Of a stretch of DNA of 64,000 bases, positions 8,184 through 62,407 are shown one piece after another. Position 1 is the first letter of the stretch, and each line of letters opens with the position of its first letter. A model generated the notes under the pieces. The model did no database searches. It was given only the letters and a program-made list of their open reading frames with translations, and was not told where the DNA came from. Where the stretch lies: positions 146,569 to 210,568 of IMG/VR virus record IMGVR_UViG_3300025141_000020. One strand, given 5' to 3'. Both the position numbers and the translations under genes were made by a program. This stretch comes from a virus.

Positions 8184-8191
8184 TATAAATA
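8184..8191 (-). promoter_or_regulatory. Repeated upstream box (sense TATTTATA)
   Basis: TATAAATA on the plus strand, 24 bases upstream of the portal ATG, in the gap after the terminase stop. Candidate phage late promoter element. Confidence 0.6.
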
Positions 8192-9929: not shown

Positions 9930-9937
9930 TATAAATA
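9930..9937 (-). promoter_or_regulatory. Repeated upstream box (sense TATTTATA)
   Basis: TATAAATA on the plus strand, 4 bases from the terminase ATG. If this is a -10-like element, the transcript would be leaderless; it could instead be a translation element. Confidence 0.55.
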
Positions 9938-16309: not shown

Positions 16310-18181
16310 TTACTTAACTTCTTCAAATTCCACATCTGTAGAATCCTGGGGGTCATTCTCCGTAGTATCGTCATTAGATTCTTCGGTTTGCTGGTATAAC
16401 TTTGTACTAATTTCTTGCCATACACTATTTAATTTTTCTGACAAGTCTTCAATGCCTTCCATGTCTTCTGCCTCAATAACTTCTTTAAGTTCTTTAATGG
16501 TATTTTCTAATCTAGATTTATCTGTTTCCTCTAACTTATCCCCAAAATCTTCCATTTGTTTTTCTGTTTGAAATATTAGTGCGTCAACCTCATTTAATTT
16601 ATTAATTTTTTCTAGTTTTTCGTTGTCGGTTTTAGCGTTTGCTTCAGCCTCTTTTTTCATTCTTTCAACTTCTTCATCTGATAAACTACTTCCAGACTCA
16701 ATTTTAATATTTTGAGACTTACCAGTTCCTTTATCGACCGCTTTAACATCAATAATACCGTTTGCGTCAATATCAAAAGTAACCTCAATCTGTGGTATCC
16801 CTCTGTGTGCTGGTGGTATGTCGGTTAGTTGAAATCTACCTAATGTTCTATTGTCTCCAGCCATTGGTCTTTCCCCTTGTAGTACGTGAATATCTACTGC
16901 TGGTTGATTATCTACCGCTGTAGAAAATACTTGACTTTTGGATGTTGGTATTGTTGTGTTAGCGTCTATTAGTTTAGTCATTACAGCTCCCATAGTTTCA
17001 ATACCTAAGGAAAGTGGTGTTACGTCCAATAATAGCACATCATTTACATCACCAGCTAATACCCCTCCTTGAATTGCTGCTCCCATAGCTACCACTTCAT
17101 CAGGATTTACTCCTTTTGATGGGTCTTTTCCAAATAATTTTTTAACGGCCTCTTGTACCGCTGGAATCCTAGTAGAACCACCAACCAATAAAATCTCATC
17201 TATGTCACTAATCTTTAATCCAGAATCTTTTAAAGCTTTTCTACATGGTGTTAAACTTCTCTTAACTAAATTACTAACCATTGACTCAAATTTTGCTCTG
17301 GATAACGTGCGTACTAAATGTTTAGGTCCTGTACTATCTGCGGTAATATACGGTAAATTAATTTCTGTTGTTGTAGAGTTTGATAATTCTACTTTTGCTT
17401 TTTCAGCTGACTCTCTTAACCTTTGTAGTGCTGATGGGTCTTTAGTTAGGTCCATACCGTTCTCAGTTTTAAACTCGTCAACTAACCAGTCTATAATTTT
17501 TTCGTCAAAATTATCTCCACCTAGGTGAGTATCACCATTAGTAGATTTTACTTCAAATACTCCATCTCCAAGTTCTAAGATTGAAACGTCAAATGTACCA
17601 CCTCCAAGGTCATAAACGGCAACAGTCATATCTTTATCTTTCTTATCCATTCCATAAGCAAGGGCTGCAGCAGTAGGTTCATTAATAATCCTAAGAACTT
17701 TTAATCCAGCTATTTCTCCCGCTTCTTTTGTTGCATTTCTTTGTTCGTCATTAAAATAAGCCGGTACAGTTATAACCGCTTCTGTTACTTTTTCACCCAA
17801 ATAATCTTCAGCTGTCTTTTTTAAATTTTGTAATACCACAGCGGAAATTTCTTGTGGTACATAAGTTTTATCACCAACCTTTATAGTTACAACATCTTTT
17901 TTTCCTTTAAGTACTGAGTAAGGCATTTTTTTTAACTCCTTACTTATTTCACTAAACTTACTACCTATAAATCTTTTTACTGAATATATAGTATTTGTAG
18001 GGTTTGTTACAGATTGTCTTTTAGCTGGGTCACCTACACTTCTATCCCCGTCTTTAAACGATACTATAGAAGGTGTTGTTCTTCTTCCTTCTGAGTTTAC
18101 GATTATTTCTGGGTTTCCACCCTCTATTACTGAAACACACGAATTCGTTGTTCCTAAATCAATTCCAATTACTTTTGCCAT
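16310..18181 (-). CDS. dnaK: Molecular chaperone DnaK (Hsp70)
   Basis: 623 aa, complete Hsp70. The nucleotide-binding domain starts [20 protein letters not shown] and includes [14 protein letters not shown] and [14 protein letters not shown]. The conserved linker [14 protein letters not shown] is at about residues 379-392, followed by a substrate-binding domain with a helical lid and the C-terminal end EFEEVK typical of bacterial DnaK. It refolds or holds client proteins with DnaJ and GrpE; neither partner is in the window, so host cochaperones are probably used. All key motifs are intact, so it is likely active. Cellular DnaK of Bacteroidota is the obvious source. It is divergent from the ClpC-like gene on the plus strand. 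Confidence 0.97.
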
Positions 18182-22268: not shown

Positions 22269-22769
22269 ATGAATTTAGAAAAAACACGAAATATGGCACT
22301 TAAACTAATGAGACAACACGGTCTTATTAGTTATACTTTTAAATGGGATAGAGCGGTAAGAAGATTTGGTTCCCATAATGGAGGAAGCTGCACTATTTCT
22401 CTTTCTAGACCTTTAACTTTACACGAAACTAACGAGTGTAGAGTTAAAAATACTATTTTACATGAAATCGCACACGCTTTAGACCACCAACAACGTGGTT
22501 ATTCTAATCACGATGCTAACTGGAAAAGAATTGCAAGGTCTATTGGGTGTAATGGTGAAAGATGTAGTAGTAGTTCAGGTGTAGATAAATCTAAAATATT
22601 AAAATGGGTGGCTACTTGTCCTAGTTGTGAAAGAAAAGTTTACTACGCAAGACAAAAAGCAAAAGATGTAGCTTGTGGTAAATGTTGTAAAAAACATAAT
22701 AATAACAAGTATACCCCTGAGTATAAATTTAATTGGAAATTAAATAGAAATGTCGTAAAATATATATAA
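22269..22769 (+). CDS. SprT-like zinc metalloprotease domain protein
   Basis: 166 aa. NTILHEIAHALDHQQRGYSN carries HExxH (His65, Glu66, His69) followed by HDANWKRIARSIG, the typical SprT/Wss1-type arrangement, and a C-terminal zinc ribbon formed by CPSC (117-120) and CGKCC (136-140). SprT-like proteins include Spartan/Wss1 proteases that remove DNA-protein crosslinks; bacterial and phage members are poorly characterised. The last base of its stop codon is the first base of the next ATG (TAATG), indicating translational coupling. Confidence 0.87.
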   Translation: MNLEKTRNMALKLMRQHGLISYTFKWDRAVRRFGSHNGGSCTISLSRPLTLHETNECRVKNTILHEIAHALDHQQRGYSNHDANWKRIARSIGCNGERCSSSSGVDKSKILKWVATCPSCERKVYYARQKAKDVACGKCCKKHNNNKYTPEYKFNWKLNRNVVKYI

Positions 22770-23300: not shown

Positions 23301-24110
23301 ATGATTAAAGAAAAATTAAAAGAATTATTGGCTATCCCAACTAAGACCTGGGAAGAGGACCGACTTATATCTTATTTAATAGAACATTTTGAGGCTCGTG
23401 GGTATCATTACGAATTAGATGAGATGGGTAACTTATATGTAACTAAAGGCATTTCCGAATACTATCCTTTAGTTTTAGCTCATACTGATAGTGTGCACGA
23501 TATTAAAGAAATGGTAGTAAAAGAAGAATACCTACCTAATTCACAGGGGGATAAAAAACTAGCCCTCAAAGCTTATACTAAAGACGGTAATCTCCCTACT
23601 GGTATAGGAGGTGACGATAAAGCAGGCGTATTTATTTGTTTACAACTTTTAGAACGGTTTAATGTTATTAAAGGGTTTTTCCCAGTCGCAGAAGAAACCG
23701 GATGTCATGGTAGTAGAGGAGCAAAAGAATCATTCTTTAATAATGTAGGTTATGCTATCCAGTTTGATTCTACCGAAAATGATACTATGTCACTCTCACT
23801 TATGGGTACGCAGTTATTTGAACAGGATTCTGAATTTTTTAATAAAGCTAAGAGTTTAATATTAGAACACGGTTTTACTGAGTGGAAACATCATCCGTAC
23901 ACCGACACAATGGTGTTAAAAGAAAGATTTAATTTTGCTTGTTTAAATTTTGCTGCGGGATATTACAACTATCACTCAGATAACGAATATGTAATTGTTG
24001 AAGATGTGTTGAACTCTATACTTTTAGGTGAGAGTGTGATAAAAAAATTAGGTAATAACTTTTACGAATTTAGGGTATCTAAAAAAGATTCTTTTGATTG
24101 GTTTGATTAG
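23301..24110 (+). CDS. M20-like metallopeptidase, short form
   Basis: 269 aa. The M20/peptidase T-like active site is visible: LAHTDSVHD (His61, Asp63), GIGGDDKAG (bridging Asp105/106), AEETG (Glu131 catalytic, Glu132 metal), an FDST near residue 156, and the final His in YYNYHSDNEYV (His225). Members act as zinc aminopeptidases or dipeptidases. It is shorter than usual (370-410 aa) and appears to lack the inserted dimerisation domain, so it may act as a monomer. Position after the ClpC-like and other peptidase genes fits a role in finishing peptide degradation (inference). It ends with a 4-base overlap with the convergent gene. Confidence 0.85.
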   Translation: MIKEKLKELLAIPTKTWEEDRLISYLIEHFEARGYHYELDEMGNLYVTKGISEYYPLVLAHTDSVHDIKEMVVKEEYLPNSQGDKKLALKAYTKDGNLPTGIGGDDKAGVFICLQLLERFNVIKGFFPVAEETGCHGSRGAKESFFNNVGYAIQFDSTENDTMSLSLMGTQLFEQDSEFFNKAKSLILEHGFTEWKHHPYTDTMVLKERFNFACLNFAAGYYNYHSDNEYVIVEDVLNSILLGESVIKKLGNNFYEFRVSKKDSFDWFD

Positions 24111-24743: not shown

Positions 24744-24745
24744 TT

Positions 24746-24775
24746 TTGTTTTATATAATAATTTACCTATATTTG
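24746..24775 (+). promoter_or_regulatory. Bacteroidota-type promoter of the ORF-tmRNA unit
   Basis: TTG at 24746-24748, 19-base spacer, TATATTTG at 24768-24775. It is the only promoter seen before the small ORF and the tmRNA, so both are probably made as one precursor. Confidence 0.75.
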
Positions 24776-24796
24776 TACTATATATAAATAAATATT

Positions 24797-24985
24797 ATGC
24801 CTAAATCAAGAAATAGAAAAAATCACAGTAAAAAAGTTTTAGCGAGAAACTTAAGGTTAAAACAACAACAAAATTCCATGAATAAACAAATGGAGTTGAT
24901 GAAAGAAGAATATATAAAAAAAATGGCTGAAAAAGCTAAAGAAAAAGAAACCGATGCTGGGGAAGTACCTTTGACATTGGGTTAG
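24797..24985 (+). CDS. Small basic helical protein upstream of tmRNA
   Basis: 62 aa. N-terminal half strongly basic (MPKSRNRKNHSKKVLARNLR), middle a Gln/Met/Lys-rich helix, C-terminus acidic. The composition suggests RNA or DNA binding. The stop codon ends 5 bases before the mature 5' end of the tmRNA and the two share a promoter, so processing (for example by RNase P) would be needed to release the tmRNA. No family recognised; a role with the tmRNA is only suggested by position. Confidence 0.7.
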   Translation: MPKSRNRKNHSKKVLARNLRLKQQQNSMNKQMELMKEEYIKKMAEKAKEKETDAGEVPLTLG

Positions 24986-24990
24986 AATAC

Positions 24991-25399
24991 GGGGGTGACT
25001 GGAATTGATTGGCGTCAGTCGATTAATGTCAGCACGTCGAGCCTGAATTAAGCTCGTAAAATCTGATTCATTTTTTTAACTGGCAAAACAATTGCTAAGT
25101 TGGCGACTTTAGGACTTGTCCGTGAGGGGTCAACAGTGGCTATCGCGTAACTAAGTTACGATATAGCTCCGTTTTCGTTAAAGTCTCTTAAGATTTGTAA
25201 CTTTATATATGAAAACGTCATTTAGACAAATCGACCCCACCCTCTACTGTTTGGGTGGTAAAATATAAGATGGTCTAGGTTACTTTGAGGGTTGTTTATT
25301 CTGTAAAAGTAACTGAATAGTTAGAATAAACTAAACGTGTAGGATAGATGTTAGTAGAAGATGAACAAGACGGGGGTTCGATACCCCCCACCTCCACCA
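24991..25399 (+). ncRNA. ssrA: Transfer-messenger RNA (tmRNA)
   Basis: About 409 nt with an encoded CCA end. The acceptor stem pairs GGGGGUG (24991-24997) with CACCUCC before ACCA. The third pair is G-U, the identity signal for alanyl-tRNA synthetase, and the discriminator is A. The T arm GGGGG-TTCGATA-CCCCC lies just before it. The resume region (TTTAACT then GGC) resembles that of Bacteroidota tmRNAs, where tags start with Gly. The stop codon region TAACTAA sits inside a hairpin (TATCG-CGTAAC / GTTACGATA), as in helix 5 of known tmRNAs. It rescues stalled ribosomes and tags the products for proteolysis with SmpB. A Rho-independent terminator follows at 25405. Confidence 0.95.
25082..25150 (+). 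other. tmRNA tag reading frame (22 codons)
   Basis: From the resume codon GGC at 25082 the frame runs 22 codons to TAA at 25148-25150. The tag begins GKTIAKLATLGL and ends STVAIA. Known Bacteroidota tags are about 9-11 residues ending ALAA, so this is roughly twice as long with a divergent but still small and hydrophobic end. The frame is chosen because its stop lies in the expected hairpin and the first codon is Gly. Confidence 0.75.
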
Positions 25400-25404
25400 A
25401 AAAG

Positions 25405-25429
25405 AAAAGGACCTAACGGTCCTTTTTTT
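25405..25429. terminator. Terminator after tmRNA and convergent gene
   Basis: Stem AAAAGGACC / GGTCCTTTT with a TAAC loop (25405-25413 with 25418-25426), followed by more T. It ends the tmRNA transcript; the A run on its left side also lets it work for the minus-strand gene ending at 25428. Confidence 0.88.
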
Positions 25430-33353: not shown

Positions 33354-33830
33354 ATGAAAAAATTAACCACAATATTATTATTACTCCTTTCCATAATTTC
33401 TTATGGACAAAATAATGTAGATATGCAAGCGTTTAATAAAATAAATGAATATCGTATATCCAATGGGGTGTCTGCTATTGTCCTTGACAGTACTATATGG
33501 AAAGGGGTGAATTATCATAGTAACTATCTAATAGATAATGGTTATCCGTATAATTACCCATTAGATAATCCTCATGATGAACTGATTTTAGCTCGTCCTT
33601 CTGACAGATTATTTCAATATAATTTCGTTATGAATGGAGTTATTAGAGAGTGTATTACGGTATTTACCTGTGTTCCGGATATGGAATTAACAACGGATTG
33701 GGTTATTAAGAACTTTGATAAGTCCACTCCTCACAAAGAAGCTGTTTTAGACCCTAGGGTAATTAGGGGTGCAATTTCCTTAACTTTTTCTGGTGATTTA
33801 TGTTATGCTACATTAATTGTAGCAGAATAA
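33354..33830 (+). CDS. Secreted CAP-like protein, divergent copy
   Basis: 158 aa. Signal peptide MKKLTTILLLLLSIISYGQ, cut after SYGQ or nearby. The mature part aligns with the two downstream paralogues: FNKINEYRISNGVSAIVLDS, NYHSNYLIDNGYPYNYP, HDELILARPSDRLF, WVIKNFDKSTPHKEAVLD and RGAISLTFSGDLCYATLIV. This is the CAP/SCP (cysteine-rich secretory, PR-1) pattern with HxxY-type and PHK motifs. Several CAP-typical residues have changed, so it is probably the most divergent copy. It ends 3 bases before the convergent 528-aa gene. Confidence 0.8.
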   Translation: MKKLTTILLLLLSIISYGQNNVDMQAFNKINEYRISNGVSAIVLDSTIWKGVNYHSNYLIDNGYPYNYPLDNPHDELILARPSDRLFQYNFVMNGVIRECITVFTCVPDMELTTDWVIKNFDKSTPHKEAVLDPRVIRGAISLTFSGDLCYATLIVAE

Positions 33831-35513: not shown

Positions 35514-36041
35514 ATGAAAAAATTAATCACAGTATTATTATTATTCCTTTCCATATTTTCTTATGGTCAAACTAAGTTAGATTTACTTATTTTCGAAAAA
35601 GTGAATAACTATCGTACACAAAATGGTTTATCTCCGTGGGCATGGGATAATAGGGTTTTCGTGGTGGCTGAAAAACACAATAATTATCAACTAAGTGTAA
35701 GTGATATTTCACATGACGAATTAGTTGATGTTGTAGGTCATGAAGAAATTAATAGGTTAGCTCATCGTTTTGACGCTATTTTTACTAATTGGTTACGTTG
35801 TGGGGAAAATATTGCTGTTGTAAACACATCTGATATGACATTAGAAAAAATTGCTAATACAACATTAGAAATGTGGATTGATTCCCCACCGCATAATAAA
35901 ATACTTTTGTCTGCAACTAAATATTGTGGTGGAGCTATAAGCTCTCACCACAGTACAACCTGGTCACGTTCTAAATATGCTTCTCACAATAGTTGGGTGT
36001 ACGTTACCTTAAATTTGTATGGTGGTTCTATATATAACTAA
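35514..36041 (+). CDS. Secreted CAP-domain protein
   Basis: 175 aa. Signal peptide MKKLITVLLLFLSIFSYGQ. The mature CAP domain shows FEKVNNYRTQNGLSPWAWDN, AEKHNNYQLSVSDISHDE, GHEEINRLAHRFD, CGENIAVVNTSD and TTLEMWIDSPPHNKIL, the order of conserved elements in bacterial CAP proteins (H...E...GENIA...W..SPPH). Such proteins bind lipids or metals or act as secreted effectors; the bacterial ones are mostly uncharacterised. It has its own host-type promoter, so it is likely expressed early or throughout infection and acts in the periplasm or outside the cell. Confidence 0.88.
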   Translation: MKKLITVLLLFLSIFSYGQTKLDLLIFEKVNNYRTQNGLSPWAWDNRVFVVAEKHNNYQLSVSDISHDELVDVVGHEEINRLAHRFDAIFTNWLRCGENIAVVNTSDMTLEKIANTTLEMWIDSPPHNKILLSATKYCGGAISSHHSTTWSRSKYASHNSWVYVTLNLYGGSIYN

Positions 36042-36127: not shown

Positions 36128-36655
36128 ATGAAAAAATTACTCACAGTCTTATTAACTATTTTAACTTTCTGTTCATACGGACAACAACGTATTGTAGAAG
36201 CAGAAAAAATCATTTTTAGAATGGTAAACGAATATAGAGTGTCTCAAGGGTTAGACGCTGTTGTATGGTCTGAAGACGCGTATAATGCAGCGTATCACCA
36301 CTCATCTTATATGTCTAATAAAGGTGTCCCTTATGCACACACTGAAACTGTTGATGTGGATGGTCATGAGGAGATAAGTAACCCTCAGATGAGAATAGCG
36401 AAGTATTGTAGCCCTTCTTCTTGGGGTACGGAATGTATGGCGGGTCTTCCTTTATTATCGTGGACCGTAGAACCTTGGGATTTAGAGAAAGCGTGTCGTA
36501 CAGTAGTAAATAATTGGATTAATTCTCCCGGACACAAAAAAGCTATATTATATGATAAAGAAGGTAACGGTAACCTTAGTATTGGAGCTGTGAGCGTAAT
36601 TAAGTTAAATTATTGTGAGAGTTCAATCCCGGTATTAGTCTTGGTGAACAAATAA
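36128..36655 (+). CDS. Secreted CAP-domain protein
   Basis: 175 aa. Signal peptide MKKLLTVLLTILTFCSYGQ. CAP elements: FRMVNEYRVSQGLDAVVWSE, YNAAYHHSSYMSNKGVPYAH, DGHEEISNPQM, and VNNWINSPGHKKAILYD, the best SPGHK match of the three paralogues. Cys residues in YCSPSSWGTECMAG may form a disulphide. The three CAP genes share signal peptide and order but have diverged, which suggests selection for variation. It ends 11 bases before the convergent 945-aa gene. Confidence 0.88.
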   Translation: MKKLLTVLLTILTFCSYGQQRIVEAEKIIFRMVNEYRVSQGLDAVVWSEDAYNAAYHHSSYMSNKGVPYAHTETVDVDGHEEISNPQMRIAKYCSPSSWGTECMAGLPLLSWTVEPWDLEKACRTVVNNWINSPGHKKAILYDKEGNGNLSIGAVSVIKLNYCESSIPVLVLVNK

Positions 36656-40445: not shown

Positions 40446-40453
40446 TATTTATA
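40446..40453 (+). promoter_or_regulatory. Repeated upstream box (sense TATTTATA), plus strand
   Basis: TATTTATA on the plus strand, 4 bases before the 400-aa gene ATG. The only exact plus-strand copy; it keeps the same orientation relative to its gene, which supports a directional signal. Confidence 0.6.
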
Positions 40454-62399: not shown

Positions 62400-62407
62400 T
62401 ATAAATA
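62400..62407 (-). promoter_or_regulatory. Repeated upstream box (sense TATTTATA)
   Basis: TATAAATA on the plus strand, 18 bases upstream of the 467-aa gene ATG and just before a terminator. Candidate phage late promoter element. Confidence 0.6.

Follow-up and report, generated by a model that had tools for sequence, protein, structure and literature searches.

The locus described here lies in a window of 64,000 nucleotides (the whole stretch of DNA that was analysed), taken from a phage contig of 210,568 bases that is probably a fragment. The contig is of phage origin, as evidenced by a terminase, a portal protein and a major head protein that are all of the T4 type, and its terminase shares ∼27% identity with the terminases of a 484-kb uncultured phage and the Flavobacterium immuto phages. 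No tRNA genes were found in the window contig or in a 232-kb relative. The genes leading up to the tmRNA encode, in order, DnaK, a ClpC-like unfoldase, an uncharacterized protein, a T5orf172-like protein, an SprT-like protein, a second uncharacterized protein, a PepT/M42-like peptidase, a third uncharacterized protein and a basic protein of 62 residues, and this order is largely retained in related phages (Table 1).

ARAGORN predicts a single tmRNA with exactly the span given in Table 1, and the Rfam model RF00023 matches it over its full length (1–374) with an E value of 1e-47 and a score of 123.3 bits, far above the gathering score of 47. The original prediction had described a complete tmRNA gene, and all of the parts it named were recovered, namely the G-U pair of the acceptor stem, the T arm, the encoded CCA (25397–25399), the stop codon (TAA, 25148–25150) lying inside a hairpin (25146–25160) and the terminator.

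Table 1. Features of the tmRNA locus; positions are those of the window, except for the last row
Feature	Position	Strand	Basis
DnaK (Hsp70)	16310..18181	-	PF00012; NF001413 over its cut-off
ClpC-like AAA+ unfoldase, no N-domain, LGF loop	18425..20467	+	Best solved relatives are ClpC
SprT-like metalloprotein	22269..22769	+	PF10263; kept in relatives
PepT/M42-like metallopeptidase	23301..24110	+	phrog_4191; invariant metal-binding motifs; fold match
Candidate Bacteroidota-type promoter, TTTG-N19-TATATTTG	24745..24775	+	Before the 62-residue gene in 10/10 contigs with this arrangement
62-residue basic protein	24797..24985	+	Ends 5 bases before the tmRNA
One-piece tmRNA gene (ssrA)	24991..25399	+	ARAGORN; RF00023, 123.3 bits; covariation in 10 relatives
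Acceptor stem, 5' strand (pairs with 25389–25395; G3-U70)	24991..24997	+	One pair changed from GC to AU
Pseudoknot 1	25038..25070	+	Compensatory changes in both stems
Tag reading frame, GKTIAKLATLGLVREGSTVAIA plus TAA, 22 codons	25082..25150	+	TAACT before GGC as in bacteria; same register in relatives
Stop-codon hairpin	25139..25167	+	Compensatory changes
Pseudoknot 2	25170..25232	+	Compensatory changes in both stems
Last pseudoknot (PK4 position)	25279..25331	+	Second stem nearly invariant; first only 70.5% paired in relatives
T stem and loop	25372..25388	+	RF00023; one GC to UA compensatory change
Rho-independent terminator	25402..25429	+	Directly 3' of the tmRNA
ClpP of the 232-kb relative (G023)	L289 1486–2157		PF00574, E 4e-61; not over NCBIfam cut-offs

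RNA structure and the tag reading frame

Across ten phage tmRNAs, the 88 proposed base pairs show standard pairing in 96.6% of cells. Two-sided changes were seen at 25 of these pairs, compared with 10.6 in shuffled alignments (none of 500 reached 25) and 3–10 in slid controls, so the pairing exceeds what would be expected by chance. The G3-U70 pair is kept in all ten RNAs and the T stem is paired in every one of them, whilst covariation is found in the first and second pseudoknots and the stop-codon hairpin, and in part in the last pseudoknot. The RNA therefore resembles the one-piece tmRNA of Bacteroidota (RF00023) in its fold, G3-U70 pair, T arm and pseudoknots, as well as in a GGC resume codon after TAACT, a stop codon within a hairpin and an encoded CCA. 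It differs in being carried by a phage, in its tag of 20–23 rather than 9 residues, in the loss of the ALAA end and in its position on a separate branch of the tmRNA tree.

The tag was originally proposed to run from GGC at 25082 to TAA at 25148, giving 22 codons with the C-terminus STVAIA, and comparison with bacterial tmRNAs and with the phage relatives upholds this frame. Of 71 tmRNAs from Bacteroidota and Ignavibacteria, 68 have a tag that begins at GGC, in most cases preceded by TAACT or TATCT, although the uniformity of this set is partly by construction, as it was retrieved by a tag pattern that itself contains GGC and an ALAA end. A second set of 32 tmRNAs from Flavobacteriales-type genomes, which was retrieved by the RNA model alone, agrees with the first, with GGC at the start in 32/32. 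GGA replaces GGC once among the bacterial tag starts compared, and the stretches preceding the bacterial resume codon include TAACT, TATCT and TAAAT; in the phage, GGC directly follows TAACT. In E. coli the five bases that precede the resume codon set the frame, the A four bases upstream having the greatest weight (PMC2481249), and this A is present in the phage tmRNA. The tag is therefore read as GKTIAKLATLGLVREGSTVAIA. Judged on the RNA and the frame alone, an intact tmRNA with a tag frame from GGC 25082 is almost certain.

ARAGORN itself placed the tag start at GCT 25094, four codons after 25082, giving 18 residues; this start was rejected as being out of register with the bacterial tmRNAs and the phage relatives, and it indicates that the program can misplace the starts of long phage tags. 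The possibility that a covariance model would move the resume codon and yield a normal short tag ending in ALAA was also tested, but no such tag resulted, and it was rejected on both the register and the relatives.

A tag family in related phages

Relatives were identified with RF00023 on contigs with a related terminase, with tag patterns, and with two patterns taken from the 3' and 5' parts of the RNA, the last of these being a less biased search than the tag patterns. Together with that of the window, 26 phage contigs (25 relatives) carry such tmRNAs, and the tag frame is open in all 26. They encode 21 distinct tags of 20–23 residues, examples from relatives being GNVLDTMTTLGLVREESTVAVA, GELFANLVNEGLLKTEGQEVAIA, GETIAKLQAVGLLRTEEVTVA and GDVYSQMELMGLVSVDSKVAVA. 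The positions that are kept are G at 1, L or M at 7, G at 11, L or I at 12, V, L or I at 13 and the final A. All have a hydrophobic end, usually VA[VI]A or TVA, and ALAA occurs in 0/21, whereas the bacterial tags read here have 9 residues and end in ALAA or AMAA. With its 22 residues and VAIA end, the window tag does not fall among the short ALAA- or AMAA-ending tags of Bacteroidota hosts, and the suggestion of a phage-borne, long and altered tag is borne out on this T4-type contig. The terminal CCA is not encoded in five of the relatives (L314, L315, L316, L324 and L326), where the gene ends CTCCACTA or CTCCACTG.

Among six diverged tags, the position-by-position likeness exceeds that of 20,000 residue shuffles at both ends of the tag, part of which shared descent alone could yield. 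The ratio pN/pS is 0.66 for the 22-codon tags and 0.46 for codons 9–22, against 0.97 and 1.33 for the other frames; shuffled columns equalled the overall tag value in 15 of 200 trials, so that this single weak test gives a modest signal of selection. None of 84,980 bacterial and archaeal genomes matched a pattern describing the C-terminal half of the tag, though variants outside the pattern could exist there, and the tag peptide, a query so short as to be insensitive, had no match in 50,697 phage records. Tag-like C-termini are present in 1 of 619 open frames among the phage proteins, which is an uninformative result.

In a quick tree constructed without the tag codons, a single branch (SH-aLRT 93) separates 22 phage tmRNAs from 100 bacterial tmRNAs, with several long host branches among the latter. 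This placement points to an old phage lineage as opposed to recent host capture, and suggests that the RNA was acquired once, long ago, from a source resembling Bacteroidota. A functionless remnant picked up from a host is scarcely plausible here. Pieces of ssrA can be picked up by phages (PMC9004378), and some relatives end in CTA or CTG instead of CCA, with one (L325) lacking an intact 3' end, but compensatory changes have kept the pairs, the tag frame has stayed open throughout, a candidate promoter and a terminator are retained, and the tmRNA has been kept even though the window contig and the 232-kb relative show no tRNA genes.

Phage tmRNAs as such have been described before (PMC4131195; PMC7162821), with 402 of 18,146 phage genomes carrying one (PMC9004378). 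Mycobacteriophages of the Bxz1 and Wildcat types, represented here by Momo and Cosmo, likewise carry one-piece tmRNAs with long tags (according to ARAGORN, 25 residues for Momo and 22 for Cosmo), but their tags (ATDTDATVTDAEIEAFFAEEAAALV; AVDTDVDFAMWEAELASDLVAA) are unrelated in sequence and their hosts are actinobacterial. Huge phages (PMC7162821) offer another parallel, as large phages with tmRNA whose genomes also hold ClpC-like and DnaK genes; the tags read in two of them do not follow the present pattern, with ANPEFAMAA in LR756511 and a 36-codon frame starting at GGC after AACT in LR756508. The latter frame, from the 484-kb uncultured phage (L234, record positions 92434–92880), was read manually as GVNNADYESAGFTAEDFAQMDGESLYHGSERKPAAV, and ARAGORN gives GRRKPLSW for the same gene.

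Neighbouring protease genes and the fate of tagged products

The ClpC-like protein has two AAA+ modules, with Walker motifs at residues 77 and 413, a D2-small domain (PF10431) and an LGF loop at residue 540, and its best solved match is ClpC. The LGF or IGF loop is where ClpC docks to ClpP, and an [LI]GF loop is retained at this position in contigs of the group. A Clp N-domain is absent from the families matched by the window protein, and its alignment to ClpC starts at residue 140; it is therefore named only ClpC-like. A UVR motif scored below the cut-off. The gene is near the tmRNA in many contigs, at a distance of 4.5 kb in the window and 8.2 kb in the 232-kb relative, distances at which the link between unfoldase and tmRNA is one of neighbourhood only.

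The peptidase is closer: in 17 contigs 64–921 bases separate it from the tmRNA, with the gene in either orientation, and in three more it is 3.9–4.6 kb away. Its structural model matches TET aminopeptidases and PepT in fold comparison. The same peptidase is also found in other phages, and its role may be unrelated to the tmRNA. The 62-residue gene lies 3–15 bases from the tmRNA in nine contigs, and no family was matched by its product in family-profile searches; searches with the neighbouring proteins yielded little overall. In one contig (L102) a cluster of tRNA genes stands in place of this gene, just upstream of the tmRNA.

The 232-kb relative, with the tag GKTLAKLATLGLVREESAVTVA, encodes an intact ClpP in addition to the ClpC-like protein, DnaK, the peptidase and the tmRNA. 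This ClpP has the Ser-His-Asp residues in ClpP context, within the motifs AASMG, MIHQ and AERDNWM. A search of the whole window contig, which is a fragment, found no ClpP, and the ClpP-bearing stretch of the relative has almost no counterpart there, so that its gene may lie outside the fragment, or the window phage may lack it. A second, different ClpP-like protein, which is 201 residues long and contains the motifs AASAG and MLIHQ, is encoded in another phage contig (L318, 2491–3093), near DnaK, the peptidase and the tmRNA. SmpB was not found in any of the phage contigs searched, all of which are fragments.

With the tag family present in 25 relatives, in many of them beside unfoldase and peptidase genes, these findings suggest a tag-and-recycle route run by the phage. 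The sequences show an intact and conserved RNA, its reading frame, a tag pattern kept across relatives, the surrounding genes and the active-site residues in the encoded enzymes; every biochemical step of the route is inferred. In this reading, large T4-like phages of one lineage would have long retained a working tmRNA of Bacteroidota type. The host would load this RNA with alanine and supply the SmpB that binds it. Once charged, the RNA would enter ribosomes halted on mRNAs that are cut or incomplete; GGC 25082 would serve as the resume codon, and Ala followed by GKTIAKLATLGLVREGSTVAIA would be added to the stalled product. The hydrophobic VA[VI]A end, along with the conserved front half of the tag, may then be read as a degron by a Clp unfoldase. 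The simplest reader would be the phage ClpC-like protein together with host ClpP, or with a phage ClpP where relatives have one, after which the neighbouring peptidase could trim the peptides to amino acids. During infection, the gain would be freed ribosomes and recycled amino acids.

A functional phage tmRNA whose tag is a Clp degron is the favoured reading, held with modest confidence, whilst the proposal that the tag is read by the phage's own unfoldase is a tentative one and on balance doubtful. A more specific form of that proposal, considered unlikely, is that the front half of the tag (L or M at 7, G at 11 and the hydrophobic residues at 12–13) binds to the phage ClpC-like unfoldase or to an adaptor, for which the 62-residue protein next to the tmRNA might be a candidate, with products being drawn away from host quality control into a phage line of Clp and peptidase.

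Alternatively, host proteases such as ClpXP may simply treat the tag as an ordinary degron; its length would then have no special reader, and the chaperone and peptidase would be unrelated housekeeping aids of a large phage. Known phages do have long tags with no such gene block reported, and E. coli ssrA variants ending in LVA, AAV or SVA serve as degradation tags (PMC9382460), so in E. coli degradation is not necessarily lost when V precedes the final A. This explanation is nevertheless thought rather unlikely, given that the front half is conserved across diverged relatives, which would be needless for a plain C-terminal signal, and that the peptidase lies by the tmRNA in 20 contigs.

It was also proposed originally that the altered tag might steer stalled products to a different protease or protect them. 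Steering appears possible from the encoded proteins, considering the ClpC-like unfoldase and the ClpP of the relative; protection of the products found no support. In a protective or competing role, the phage RNA would outcompete the host tmRNA and host ClpXP would read the tag poorly, sparing the products or freeing ribosomes without costly proteolysis. The replacement of the ALAA end in 21/21 phage tags, when the bacterial tags here keep ALAA or AMAA, would agree with this, yet it is decidedly improbable, as all phage tags retain the hydrophobic end and terminal alanine that degrons have, incomplete proteins would serve little purpose, and an unfoldase and a peptidase are close by.

A switch to a protease outside the Clp system is very improbable. 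Its precedent is the ssrA tag of Mycoplasma and Mesoplasma, which is similarly long with an altered end, and in which the change of end goes with a change of protease (PMC3985003; PMC9382460). That tag is cellular, ends in AFA and is read by Lon, whereas the present one belongs to a phage and ends in VAIA, and neither Lon (Lon_C) nor S41 (Tsp/Prc) was matched in seven phage contigs; a ClpC-like unfoldase is present instead. Because of this, and the ClpP of the relative, any change of protease is more likely to be one within the Clp system.

Phage tmRNAs, long phage tags and the long altered tag of Mycoplasma with its other protease are already known. What is new is a family of conserved tags that share a pattern of their own, together with its place next to phage genes for an unfoldase and a peptidase and, in a relative, for ClpP; a limited literature search found no prior report of a tag family in such a gene setting. 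A whole phage lineage keeps one non-bacterial tag family, and nearby genes encode proteins that might recognise the tag and complete the breakdown of the tagged products. The tags are also candidate degrons, and the question of why phages carry tmRNA becomes testable through the tag family and the neighbouring unfoldase and peptidase.

Candidate promoters and other signals

The consensus behind the candidate promoter before the 62-residue gene is that of Bacteroides promoters. In most relatives the tmRNA is followed by a terminator-like stretch. A further motif, TATTTATA, occurs on the coding strand within the 40 bases before the start codon in 14 of 50 window genes (for example at 8184–8191, 9930–9937, 40446–40453 and 62400–62407), compared with five or fewer in shuffled upstream stretches, and it is also seen ∼26 bases before the tmRNA in several relatives without the 62-residue gene. 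It may be a phage promoter or an initiation motif. The window also encodes three small proteins that resemble one another and begin with signal-peptide-like segments (33354–33830, 35514–36041 and 36128–36655), and the latter two genes, as well as the SprT-like gene at 22269, are preceded by similar promoter-like stretches beginning TTAACTTGGT.
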